Of a DNA stretch of 64,000 bases, positions 6,494 through 41,388 are shown one piece after another (the first letter of the stretch is position 1; the number at the start of each line of letters is the position of its first letter). Where the stretch lies: positions 62,001 to 126,000 of IMG/VR virus record IMGVR_UViG_3300036406_001035; one strand, given 5' to 3'. The DNA is from a virus. Position numbers and translations under genes: made by a program. The notes under the pieces were generated by a model. It made no database searches and was not told the origin of the DNA. It was given only the letters and a program-made list of their open reading frames with translations.

Positions 6494-6861
6494 AGCATTA
6501 ATAATTCAAAGTGTTCTGGTGTTGTAATAGTTCTATAATCACAAATGATTTCTTCATTTATTTCTATATCAGAAATAGCAATACCTATATTCCCAATAAA
6601 AACAATATTAGGATCTTCTGAATGATTTATAAACTTAGCGTCATCACAATCTAAATTATAAATTTGTTCTAACCCTTTCTTTTCTACTGTAGCATATCTA
6701 TCCAAATATTCTCTATATTCATATGGAATTTGAGACATAGGAATCTCAATATCTTTATCTGATTTAAACCAAATAGGTCTACCTTTTTCTATATACTCAG
6801 CAGCATATAACCCATAACCGTGGATTAATGATTTTCCTGTTGTTGTTCTAATTAAAAGCAT
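6490..6861 (-). CDS. SET-domain protein (predicted lysine methyltransferase)
   Basis: 123 residues, close to a minimal SET domain. Visible hallmarks in order are GYGLYAAEYIEKG (residues 15-27, the N-SET glycine-rich entry), FINHSEDPN (78-86, the NHS..PN pseudoknot that binds S-adenosylmethionine), and NEEIICDYR (102-110, the E-E-x-x-x-D-Y element with the catalytic tyrosine). Such domains move methyl groups from SAM to lysine side chains. The pre- and post-SET cysteine clusters of eukaryotic enzymes are absent, as in most bacterial and viral stand-alone SET proteins. It sits between thioredoxin and an 80-residue gene in the virion operon, so a virion or host protein target is plausible. The target is unknown. 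Confidence 0.8.
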   Translation of the reverse strand: MLLIRTTTGKSLIHGYGLYAAEYIEKGRPIWFKSDKDIEIPMSQIPYEYREYLDRYATVEKKGLEQIYNLDCDDAKFINHSEDPNIVFIGNIGIAISDIEINEEIICDYRTITTPEHFELLML

Positions 6862-7124
6862 GATAAATGATTTTTAATTAATAATGCTGTTTGTGCACCA
6901 AAACCGTTAACTATTTTACTAGAATCATCACTGATTAATACTAAAGTAGGAAAAGCATAACTTTCAACTTTTTTCATTTCTTCATATAATTCATTTAATG
7001 TAACTGTCTCATCACTAATTATTTTAACCTTTTCTTGACATTCATCATTTAAAGTATTAATAAACATTTTTAATGCTTGACATGGTCCACATGACTTTTT
7101 TGATAATATAAGTAATTTATTCAT
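6852..7124 (-). CDS. Thioredoxin-like protein
   Basis: 90 residues with the redox motif CGPC at 12-15 and the cis-proline signature AFPTL near 57-61, the two diagnostic elements of a thioredoxin fold. It should reduce or isomerise disulfides in the host cytoplasm, or serve as an electron donor. It is shorter than a typical ~105-residue thioredoxin and near glutaredoxin length, but CGPC is the thioredoxin active site. It overlaps the SET gene by ten bases. Phage thioredoxins can also be structural partners of other phage proteins; nothing here shows that directly. Confidence 0.85.
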   Translation of the reverse strand: MNKLLILSKKSCGPCQALKMFINTLNDECQEKVKIISDETVTLNELYEEMKKVESYAFPTLVLISDDSSKIVNGFGAQTALLIKNHLSCF

Positions 7125-12108: not shown

Positions 12109-12510
12109 ATGACTACTACATTTCAAAAGTTAGATCCTATGGATTACATATTTAACAAAGGTGCAAGTTCTTACCATATTGAAGTCTTTGACAACGGTAT
12201 TAGATATGAGCTTTTGTTAGTTCATACATCTTCAGGTAAAACTATTGATAGCCACAGTCTAGACAATTGTCTCATGTGTCCTGAGTTTGTTGATCCTTGC
12301 TTTTATAACCATAAGGTTATTAAAGGTAAATTTGACAGAAGTGATTGGATTGATAATGCTTGTCCTTATGTACTCAAAACTATTGAAGACAGGATAAATG
12401 CTAATAATCAGCAGTCTTTAATTGATTTTCTCAAAGAACACAATGAAAGAGAGGAAAGGTTGAGAGAACTTGACATGAAACGTGCTTTTGATTCAGCTCC
12501 TTCCTATTAA
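12109..12510 (+). CDS. Hypothetical protein
   Basis: 133 residues, MTTTFQKLDPMDYIFNKGASS..., with a beta-rich N-terminal half (SYHIEVFDNGIRYELLLVHT), four to five cysteines in the middle (NCLMCPEFVDPCF) and a charged helical C-terminus. It is preceded by the AAACTCAAAAAC leader. No family recognised. A hammerhead ribozyme starts 42 bases after its stop, so its mRNA 3' end may be set by self-cleavage. Confidence 0.7.
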   Translation: MTTTFQKLDPMDYIFNKGASSYHIEVFDNGIRYELLLVHTSSGKTIDSHSLDNCLMCPEFVDPCFYNHKVIKGKFDRSDWIDNACPYVLKTIEDRINANNQQSLIDFLKEHNEREERLRELDMKRAFDSAPSY

Positions 12511-12551
12511 GTTAGGGAGGAGTTTTAACTTTCAAGTTGGTAAACTAGCTA

Positions 12552-12609
12552 TAAACTGTCGTGGGAATGTATCCTGCCTGATGATGACCCAAAAGGTCGA
12601 AACAGTATA
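12552..12609 (+). ncRNA. Hammerhead ribozyme 1 (type III)
   Basis: All three helices and the catalytic core are visible. Stem III ACTG-U pairs with A-CAGT around the cleavage site GTC (predicted cut after C12560). Stem I GTGGGA / TCCTGC has loop ATGTA. The core CTGATGA spans 12578-12584. Stem II GACC / GGTC has loop CAAAA, followed by GAAA (12599-12602). The open helix is stem III, hence type III. There is one extra U (12585) between the CUGAUGA box and stem II, shared with ribozyme 2. It lies in the 593-base ORF-free stretch 12511-13103. Confidence 0.82.
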
Positions 12610-12873
12610 AAGCACTACTATAGGAGGCATCCTTTGTAGTAAAGAAAGAAAATAGTGTATCACTGCACATTGTTTTCTTTTGCTTTCTCTTTTAGAACTA
12701 TCTTACCTTAGTTTGAGGTAGCGAGATAGGTCTATTTAAAAAAATGTAAAATTTAAAAAAAATTACCTGAAAGTATTTCCAAATGTAGTGATTAGGAAAA
12801 AGGATAGGGGCTTGTGGTTAAGCTGTAGACTACGAGCAAGAGCAGTGGTATTGATATCTTCCTTATAGATATT

Positions 12874-13016
12874 ATTATAACAAATAATAGAGAAGTACGA
12901 ATTACAACCTCAATTGTAATTAAAAGAAAAAGTAAGTGTGAGAAGCTTATAAATATCTTTTGTATTATATATAGATGTACACTATATGTAAGATTTTATC
13001 TATTATTTGTTATAAT
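12874..13016. repeat. 17-bp perfect inverted repeat enclosing a 109-base RNA-like segment
   Basis: Arms 12874-12890 and 13000-13016 are exact reverse complements (17 bases, read ATTATAACAAATAATAG). A smaller hairpin GAATTACAA / TTGTAATT lies inside. The right arm ends exactly where hammerhead 2 begins. The transcript would form a long closed hairpin, suggesting a structured RNA released by the flanking ribozyme. Confidence 0.75.
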
Positions 13017-13075
13017 TTCTGTCCATAAACTATTGTTTATGCTGATGATGACCTAATTGAGGGTCGAAACAGAAA
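13016..13075 (+). ncRNA. Hammerhead ribozyme 2 (type III)
   Basis: Stem III TTTCTG-U / A-CAGAAA surrounds the GTC site (predicted cut after C13023). Stem I is a perfect 7-bp CATAAAC / GTTTATG hairpin with loop TATT. The core CTGATGA spans 13042-13048. Stem II GACC / GGTC (13050-13053, 13062-13065) is followed by GAAA (13066-13069). The same extra U (13049) sits between the core box and stem II. It ends 28 bases before the next gene, so cleavage would give that mRNA a short 5'-OH leader. Confidence 0.85.
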
Positions 13076-13103
13076 CCGCAAAAACTCAAAAAAATAAACA
13101 ATT

Positions 13104-13355
13104 ATGTCAAATTCTACAATAGTAAAACCACAGATAAGTTTTACTGATGAACAAAAAGAAGAAATTAGAGAAGCTTTTCAACGTCTTATGGGAATGAATG
13201 GAGATCCTTTTAAAAAAGAGATATTTACTACAGGTAAATTAAGTCAACGTTCTTATGAAGTCATATGTAATAATATTTCATATAATGGAGAGAGTAGTAT
13301 AAAAGAGCATTTTGGATTAGTTCATTGGTATTATTTACAAGGATTACGAAAATAA
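13104..13355 (+). CDS. Hypothetical protein downstream of hammerhead 2
   Basis: 83 residues, MSNSTIVKPQISFTDEQKEEIREAFQRLMG..., predicted mostly helical, ending in YYLQGLRK. It is preceded by the AAACTCAAAAAA leader directly after the ribozyme. The EEIREAFQRLM helix recalls EF-hand-type starts, but there is no calcium loop, so I do not call it that. Function unknown. Confidence 0.65.
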   Translation: MSNSTIVKPQISFTDEQKEEIREAFQRLMGMNGDPFKKEIFTTGKLSQRSYEVICNNISYNGESSIKEHFGLVHWYYLQGLRK

Positions 13356-15482: not shown

Positions 15483-15560
15483 AGGTGTATAGTTCAAGCG
15501 GTTAGAGCAATTTTACGTTAAGTAAAGGAAATCCAGGTTCAAATCCTGGTGCACCTACCA
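15483..15560 (+). tRNA. tRNA-like gene with unusual anticodon loop (CCA encoded)
   Basis: Acceptor AGGTGTA / TGCACCT, D-arm GTTC...GAGC, T-arm CCAGG-TTCAAAT-CCTGG, discriminator A and an encoded CCA are all clear. The best anticodon stem is TTTTA / TAAAG with loop CGTTAAG, whose centre reads TTA, complementary to the UAA stop codon. Position 33 is G instead of U, and two unpaired A's lie before the stem. If the loop is shifted by one base, GTT (Asn) would be the anticodon, but that stem is poor. The tRNA identity of the body is firm; the decoding specificity is not. Confidence 0.7.
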
Positions 15561-23435: not shown

Positions 23436-23661
23436 AGTCAGGTGGCAGAACTGGTAATGCCTATAGCTGAGTATTGGAATAAACAAGTAGACCCCTAATT
23501 AAAAGCCTAACGGATTTCACCACCAAGAACCAAAGTTCTGGAATAATAAAAATCCTCAGATGTGGTTTAGGGACTTATCAAACTCTCCGAAATCAGAGTA
23601 GGAGCTGTTAATAACCAAGATGGTAAGTGTTTATTTACAGGTTCGAATCCTGTCCTGACTA
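23436..23661 (+). tRNA. tRNA-like gene A with ~150-base internal insert
   Basis: The ends are those of a normal tRNA: acceptor AGTCAGG / CCTGACT, D-arm GGCAGAACTGGTAATGCC, T-arm ACAGG-TTCGAAT-CCTGT, discriminator A. The middle is far too long. A perfect helix AATAAAC (23478-23484) / GTTTATT (23629-23635) lies where a class II variable arm would start, and encloses ~145 bases with further stems (GGATTT / AAATCC, GAAC / GTTC, CTCT / AGAG). It is either a tRNA with a small intron or a tRNA-derived RNA. The anticodon cannot be assigned. Confidence 0.6.
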
Positions 23662-23675
23662 CAAAAAATATTAAT

Positions 23676-23834
23676 ATGAGAAGTAAAACAGTTCAGAGAA
23701 TGCTGGATAAGATGAAAAAAGACCCTTGGTGGGTTAAGTTAAAAAGATGGTTAATAGTAGAATTTTACGTAATCAATTGTTTGGGTGTTGTTAAATACAT
23801 AAAAAATAATATAGTCAGGTGGCGGAATTGGTAG
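23676..23834 (+). CDS. Doubtful small ORF between tRNA-like genes
   Basis: 52 codons, MRSKTVQRMLDKMKKDPWWV..., with a basic amphipathic start and a hydrophobic middle. It ends in TAG 21 bases inside the next tRNA-like gene, which argues against it. It has an A-rich leader. Kept as low confidence because it would be a plausible small membrane-active peptide. Confidence 0.3.
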   Translation: MRSKTVQRMLDKMKKDPWWVKLKRWLIVEFYVINCLGVVKYIKNNIVRWRNW

Positions 23835-23984
23835 ACCGTCTCTTGGTTGAGAAGGCTTATAGTCCATGTTCGGGGATTAACTCTTTGGCATACCGACAAC
23901 TACAGTGAAGTATGAATGTACCTCTCCTGATGTAGCGACAGAGTTTTAACTATAAGTATACAGGTTCGAATCCTGTCCTGACTA
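23813..23984 (+). tRNA. tRNA-like gene B with ~90-base insert
   Basis: Same acceptor (AGTCAGG / CCTGACT) and T-arm as gene A, with D-arm GGCGGAATTGGTAGACC. A helix CTTATAGT (23856-23863) / ACTATAAG (23949-23956) just before the T-arm encloses ~85 bases. Between D-arm and this helix is a hairpin TCTC-TTGGTT-GAGA, possibly an anticodon arm, although its loop has six bases. The total of 172 nt is twice that of a normal tRNA. The anticodon is not assignable. Confidence 0.6.
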
Positions 23985-24002
23985 CTAAAATATTACGTGA
24001 TA

Positions 24003-24138: not shown

Positions 24139-24231
24139 AGTCAGGTAGCGGAATTGGTAGACGCAAAAATAGAATTAGTAAGGTCGTAACCCCTTTACAA
24201 TTTACAGGTTCGAATCCTGTCCTGACTACCA
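24139..24231 (+). tRNA. tRNA-like gene C (same ends, short middle, CCA encoded)
   Basis: Same acceptor and T-arm as genes A and B; D-arm AGCGGAATTGGTAGACGC; the 3' end reads ACCA. The middle is about 45 bases: a helix GAATT / AATTT adjoining the T-arm encloses GTAAGG / CCTTTAC with loop TCGTAACC. The D-arm resembles Leu/Ser-type tRNAs. The loop holds GTA (Tyr) or TAA (Leu), but no standard seven-base loop can be drawn, so the amino acid is not assigned. Confidence 0.6.
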
Positions 24232-24607
24232 TTATGGCGGAAACCTAACAAGTTGTGGGGCTCCTGTGTCTCTTAAAGTCTATAAAATACTTTAAGTCCA
24301 ATTAAAAAGACAAGGTAGTGCAGAGTATAAAATCAACCCTTTTATAAAATGAATACTTGATATGTATTCTGTGTTTTTAGGTTAAAAACTAGGATATCCA
24401 TACAACCTTATTTGTATGTTCTTCTATGAGTTTAAGGTTCTCATATTGATATAAATTATATATATGAAGATATATTAAAAGTTATTATAATCATGATTAT
24501 AACTTTTAGATTTATATCTGTTTGGCAAAAAGAGAAGAAGTATTAGGATGGTATAACTTACATCCGAGTGTCGTTTCATGAAACGATGCTACTCCTTATA
24601 AAAATTT
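24232..24607 (+). other. ORF-free spacer with palindromic hairpins
   Basis: 376 bases without a gene. Clear folds are AAAAGTTAT / ATAACTTTT around 24477-24508, CGTTTCATGAAACG (a 14-base palindrome near 24573), GGATG / CATCC near 24548-24572, and AAGGTT...AACCTT-type pairs earlier. The segment 24530-24595 could be a compact three-way-junction RNA. Its tRNA-array position suggests processing sites or another small RNA. Confidence 0.5.
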
Positions 24608-41280: not shown

Positions 41281-41349
41281 GGGTTATATAGTATAATTGG
41301 TATTATGATTATTAATAATCGGATGTAGGTTCGAATCCTATTATAACCC
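41281..41349 (+). tRNA. tRNA-like gene with G-1:C73 pair
   Basis: Acceptor GGTTATA / TATAACC is extended by an extra G at the 5' side facing C at the discriminator, the mark of tRNA-His. T-arm GTAGG-TTCGAAT-CCTAT is normal. The anticodon arm TGATT / AATCG has a six-base loop ATTAAT with no GTG, so it cannot decode His as drawn. The D-arm is degenerate. A tRNA body with an unreadable anticodon, as in several other members of this set. Confidence 0.6.
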
Positions 41350-41388
41350 CTTTTTAAAAACAAACATTAAATAAAAACCTTAAAAATT

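Follow-up and report, generated by a model that had tools for sequence, protein, structure and literature searches.

Two type III hammerhead ribozymes bound a conserved structured RNA in crAss-like phages: a candidate excised non-coding RNA

The role of hammerhead ribozymes in phages has been open since their discovery in prophages, and a ribozyme found behind a small protein gene of a viral genome raises the question of which RNA it would cut and what such a cut would release. The locus considered here lies in a stretch of 64,000 nucleotides (hereafter, the window), which is one part of a virus record of 142,521 bases (142.5 kb). The terminase and the portal protein of this phage match PHROG families, and the best matches of the terminase among named phages are to Crassvirales, at about 27% identity. 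The cassette reads rightward, shortly past a switch in gene direction, and the leftward terminase gene is about 7 kb away. It is preceded by a small ORF of 133 aa (12109–12510, + strand), which has no confident family and is not conserved beside the element in relatives. A 12-bp hairpin (12495–12524, + strand; fold z −3.9) overlaps the stop codon of this ORF and, judging from its predicted fold, would be a candidate 3′-protecting or terminator-like hairpin of the upstream mRNA; in the related phages L016 and L030 the hairpins GGGGGC-UUAU-GCUCCC and GGGAG-CUUAGU-CUCCC, respectively, are found immediately 5′ of the ribozyme.

An earlier note had read the sequence as a type III hammerhead cut after position 12560. 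The ribozyme, here called HHR1 (12552–12611, + strand), has the features of this type: the core CUGANGA...GAAA...N-U-H, three helices and an open stem III. Stem III is formed by ACUGU/ACAGU (5 bp, or about 11 if 2 mismatches are allowed) and is followed by the cut-site residue H17, which is C12560, so that the predicted cleavage is at 12560|12561, in agreement with that reading; stem I, GUGGGA/UCCUGC (6 bp), precedes the CUGAUGA core, and stem II, GACC/GGUC (4 bp), is preceded by the extra U12585, located between A9 and the stem, and followed by GAAA. This shape is also the minimum-energy prediction for its stretch. Recognition by the Rfam covariance models, which the earlier note had proposed as a check, was only partial. 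In a search of a 601-nt stretch, Hammerhead_3 (RF00008) matched HHR1 with 31.8 bits (E 6.9e-5), below the gathering score of 48.5, which is a database cut-off for automatic annotation and not a biochemical definition; the scan of the whole window reported neither of the two hammerheads described here, the short stretch being needed to reveal HHR1, and the second one (HHR2, below) was not reported by RF00008. HHR1 resembles the RF00008 consensus in its CUGAUGA/GAAA core, the U-H cut site, the open stem III and the loop-closed stems I and II, and differs from it in the unpaired U after A9 and in the score under the cut-off.

A covariance model built by a leave-one-out procedure from 17 hammerheads of the HHR2 (downstream) type, with all HHR1 copies excluded, gave HHR1 51.7 bits (E 5.7e-12, 165 kb searched), whilst the best unrelated site in the phage reached 13.5 bits. 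Moreover, in an alignment of 20 phage copies 95.6% of the cells were paired, both sides had changed in 11 of the 17 pairs, and the covariation was 0.404, compared with 0.126 in shuffled alignments (0/500 as high) and 0.03–0.09 when the partners were slid. The earlier note had held that the hammerhead should be given up if both a covariance-model match and compensatory changes were missing, and both were found. That these are inactive chance or decayed hammerhead-like sequences is in our opinion very improbable: the RF00008 score below the gathering cut-off and the lack of a recognisable HHR1 in the related phage L020 point in that direction, but the leave-one-out match and the compensatory changes argue against it. 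Sequence, fold, model and compensatory changes therefore bear out the type III assignment, and the comparison of sequences confirms the hammerhead at 12552–12611 as real.

The extra U had been regarded as an inherited variant rather than a sequence error, and this holds well. HHR2 carries it, and so does each of the two ribozymes in L016 and in L030, relatives in which stem II now reads GGGG/CCCC and GGGA/UCCC beside an unaltered U. The exact pattern including the U was found in 63 IMG/VR contigs, which belong to crAss-like phages and to many others; the extra U is, thus, an established variant. On the other hand, it has a precedent: according to PMC3705267, which cites De la Pena and Flores 2001, the hammerhead of CChMVd(+) carries an extra A after A9, that is, one unpaired base between A9 and stem II as in HHR1, the difference being that it is an A in a plant viroid RNA and here a U in a phage DNA genome. 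On that account an unpaired base in this position is already known and the extra U is not novel; other variants of the hammerhead core have also been described (PMC3088659). A hammerhead with one extra U is, therefore, a correct observation, but close to what is known. In some other phages we observed that the U is matched by a second U before GAAA, which resembles the U10.1-U11.1 mismatch of PMC3088659.

HHR1 is one of a pair. HHR2, a type III hammerhead with the same extra U, is located at 13015–13078 (+ strand), with predicted cleavage at 13023|13024, and no further hammerhead was found in the 142.5-kb record. About 25–26 nt past HHR2 is the start codon of an ORF of 83 aa (13104–13355, + strand), which has no confident family. 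The loops CUAUUG and UAAUUGAG, between which a loop I–loop II tertiary contact might form, show good conservation among HHR2-type copies. All four phage lineages that carry the element (the window phage, L020, L016 and L030) have an intact HHR2, and L016 and L030 also have an intact HHR1, whose stem II has undergone compensated changes. We rejected the idea that a hammerhead is a fixed feature of crAss-like phages, since it was found in 0/18 further IMG/VR relatives, in a search that had no positive of its own, and in 0/6 named genomes, in a search that detected the window phage as a control.

The segment between the two ribozymes is itself conserved. About 410 nt recur in the four distinct crAss-like lineages beside unrelated genes, with identities to the window, by BLAST of the region against the contigs, of 87% in L020, 73% in L016 and 75% in L030, and the terminases of these three phages are 31–37% identical to that of the window phage. 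The conserved block carries one- and two-base indels, which speak against its being a reading frame. Read by hand, its structure comprises 12 helices with 85 pairs in total, and one of the helices is a pseudoknot; across the four sequences 97.3% of the cells are paired and 20 pairs are altered on both sides, and the covariation is 0.318, compared with 0.188 in shuffled alignments (0/500 as high) and 0.03–0.10 with partners slid by 1–3 columns, values that come from four lineages in five records, with few independent events, many of them common to L016 and L030. Going from 5′ to 3′ on the + strand, the structure contains hairpin 1 (12614–12640; ACUAC/GUAGU, inner 4 bp and GGCA loop, 2 compensatory pairs), hairpin 2 with the loop AUCACUGC (12648–12677; 4 compensatory pairs), a variable hairpin region (12695–12735), whose sequence is not conserved and whose hairpins in the relatives were read by eye, helix 4 (12776–12799; block CCUGAAAGUAUUNCC..GGRAA), the invariant GGAUAGGG (12802–12809), hairpin 5 with the pseudoknot 12822–12826/12842–12846 (12810–12846), whose closing pair covaries as G-U, A-U or G-C depending on the phage, and hairpin 6 (12854–12872; 2 compensatory pairs). 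A long-range stem of 17 bp (12874–12890/13000–13016; 3 compensatory pairs) then spans 12874–13016 and encloses three hairpins (12902–12919, 12923–12961 and 12965–12991), the inner helices having 7 compensatory pairs. A structure obtained by RNAalifold from the first alignment, in which the 5′ half of hairpin 2 was engaged in long-range pairs, was replaced, since the local hairpin covaries better. The RNA predicted to be released (12561–13023, + strand) folds with z −5.4 with respect to shuffled sequence, and the fold in which the main comparative helices are forced is just 1.3 kcal/mol above the free minimum.

Homology among these phages falls to background identity at the outer edges of the ribozyme pair, and the genes flanking the element are not shared among the phages that carry the RNA. 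The clearest case is L020, in which the 5′ half of the RNA has diverged and positions 6500–6959 are 96–100% identical to positions 12801–13050 of the window, while the terminase is 35% identical; the block must therefore have moved between phages and, on the sequence comparison, the near-identity of the 3′ half is best read as recent horizontal movement. No Rfam family matched 12606–13014 above chance, relaxed threshold included. Three pattern scans of IMG/VR returned only the same four lineages, and no homologues were found in GTDB bacterial genomes (one pattern), in plasmids or in an annotated phage collection; the pattern matches L165/L166 and L170–L177 were rejected by both models as chance matches. 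Retrieval of neighbours by protein similarity gave only a near-identical contig, L005. A type III toxin-antitoxin pair was also considered and dropped, as there is no conserved neighbour protein and no tandem RNA repeats were seen in the element.

Taken with the two ribozymes, we consider it probable that the pair excises a structured ncRNA of 463 nt (12561–13023) from a rightward phage transcript, with the 5′-OH and 2′,3′-cyclic phosphate ends expected of hammerhead cleavage. We infer that, in the cell, HHR1 would cut first, at 12560|12561, as it emerges, leaving the upstream mRNA with a 2′,3′-cyclic phosphate behind a hairpin. The body of the ncRNA would fold next, including the 17-bp stem that ends beside the stem III strand of HHR2, and since the stem stops at this border, both the ncRNA fold and the ribozyme could form without competition at that point. 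HHR2 would then cut at 13023|13024. According to the model, this single cut defines where the ncRNA ends and where the next mRNA starts; the latter would begin with a 5′-OH and carry the folded remainder of HHR2, a short A-rich leader and the start codon. The excised RNA might be stable and might act in trans. The earlier note had suggested that HHR1 sets the 3′ end of the upstream mRNA or frees a downstream RNA; the direction appears right, but the freed RNA would be one particular conserved ncRNA with a cut at either end, which had escaped that reading. Double excision is not obligatory, because L020 keeps HHR2 and the ncRNA and has no recognisable HHR1, and in L020 the 5′ end of the ncRNA must arise otherwise.

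The folding of the 3′ part of the element leaves room for a different use of HHR2. When the transcript was folded from 12561, HHR2 was not clearly favoured until more downstream sequence was included, which counts against excision. The invariant GGAUAGGG has a possible partner, UUCUGUC(C), at 13017–13024. In the folding models, a helix between GGAUAGGG and UUCUGUCC would span the cut site, and it could mask or regulate HHR2, or hold the mature 3′ end. If HHR2 were a regulated switch, the folding of the ncRNA, or a bound ligand or protein, would decide the release of the downstream gene. RNAalifold and the partition function favour the GGAUAGGG helix at some transcript lengths, and both partners are invariant in the four lineages, but at other lengths its probability is about 0, and its pairs show no covariation; we regard such a switch as improbable.

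A further explanation is that the two ribozymes are ordinary mRNA punctuation, and that the RNA between them, though long and structured, is simply untranslated and has no separate function. The survey of other phages gives it some ground. In a set of 44 non-redundant type III hammerheads from phages, an ORF begins 5–40 nt downstream of 34 (control 15%, p 3e-20), and 51% of phage type III hammerheads have a strong hairpin just upstream of the cut site (controls 14% and 12%, p 5e-5), figures that count in favour of excision as well; many phages have single hammerheads placed after a hairpin and before the start codon that follows, and in L013, L065, L052, L060 and L029 a series of hammerheads separates the genes of an operon. 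Moreover, 10 other records with a crAss-like terminase have a single HHR2-type ribozyme without the ncRNA, mostly just before unrelated ORFs, and a precedent in prophages has been published (PMC3088659). What speaks against it is that the compensated fold and the pseudoknot are conserved in phages that share neither flanking gene, and punctuation needs none of that. Mere punctuation of this locus is, thus, rather unlikely, and excision of the ncRNA is the reading that we prefer. For other phages, the position of 34 of the 44 before a start codon, and of half behind a hairpin, suggests that some of them use ribozymes as a code for processing and mRNA separation. In prophages, hammerheads clustered around genes were proposed to divide long transcripts, and processing or circular products were suggested (Perreault et al. 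2011, PMC3088659); the hairpin-ribozyme-start pattern extends this idea. The crAss-like pair is similar in that several hammerheads would divide one phage transcript, but those of the prophages flank protein genes, whereas the pair flanks a conserved structured ncRNA (PMC3088659).

In the five loci named above, and also in L061, L042 and L047, we observed operons in which almost every gene is preceded by a type III hammerhead. The order of the unit in these loci is short hairpin, ribozyme, a TTGGAGG-type ribosome-binding site and start, and several of their hammerheads show core changes, among them a U-U mismatch at the stem II base.

The preferred reading, excision of the ncRNA, could be extended rather than replaced by considering the element as a DNA-encoded viroid-like or mobile cassette, whose excised RNA is circularised by back-ligation of the hammerhead or by a host RtcB and whose block moves between phages. 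Base pairing is possible between the 3′ end of the excised RNA, UUUCUGUC, and the GAAACAG arm retained at the 5′ end; it comprises 4 bp in the window and 7 bp in L030 and would rebuild a hammerhead over the junction, so that closure by back-ligation or RtcB is, from the sequence, conceivable. The end of homology at the ribozyme edges and the near-identical block of L020 fit this extension, but phage genomes commonly show sharp mosaic borders that involve no RNA step, the search of eight records found neither RtcB nor RNA_ligase nor a reverse transcriptase (RVT_1), even if a host ligase could serve, and for other prophage hammerheads circular products were sought and none was found (PMC3088659). 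A parallel is offered by retrozymes, plant hammerhead retroelements that move via reverse transcription and circular RNA (PMC4918200). As in retrozymes and viroid-like elements, two type III hammerheads bound a non-coding unit from which a monomer RNA could be released, HHR1 being missing in L020; the difference is the reverse transcription used there (PMC4918200), for which no gene was found in the records searched here. We therefore hold the mobile and circular extension as a possibility of limited weight, and a new phage ncRNA family with hammerhead-made ends, a circularised monomer and a ribozyme-bounded block moving between crAss-like phages is proposed with equal caution.

Among large structured RNAs of other families, GOLLD and ROOL are often phage-borne. 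Like GOLLD, ROOL and OLE, the new ncRNA is hundreds of nucleotides long and multibranched, and it differs from them in lacking an Rfam match at the relaxed threshold and in its predicted ribozyme-made ends (PMC12286853). In the literature searched, mostly outside subscription journals, no text joins hammerheads with Crassvirales, and a hammerhead pair bounding a structured ncRNA family is new relative to the databases and literature searched. A matched pair around a conserved, gene-free RNA would give phage hammerheads a concrete job, namely the making of both ends of an ncRNA without protein, and the excised RNA would represent an undescribed family in an abundant phage order, possibly with a circular form.

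Other observations in the window concern tRNAs. A sequence similar to the Hatchet ribozyme (24228–24338, + strand; 43.4 bits, E 2e-5, where the Rfam cut-off is 51) begins precisely where a tRNA-Leu-like gene (24139–24228) ends on its 3′ side, with CCA at the junction, and its cleavage is predicted to fall at or beside the 3′ end of the tRNA; it was not found in 15 other records. Two more tRNA-Leu-like genes (23436–23664 and 23813–23985, + strand) have the same ends, AGTCAGGTGGC ... ACAGGTTCGAATCCTGTCCTGACTA, but their lengths, about 230 and 170 nt, look like those of genes interrupted by inserts, and they were not called by ARAGORN. The same program called, at 15483–15560 and 41282–41350 (+ strand), a tRNA with the anticodon TTA, which reads UAA, and a tRNA with a two-base anticodon; these may be suppressor or degenerate phage tRNAs. 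Finally, in the L059:141 region a hammerhead core lies directly 3′ of an apparent T arm and acceptor end of a tRNA and, by its sequence context, is possibly another ribozyme at the 3′ end of a phage tRNA.
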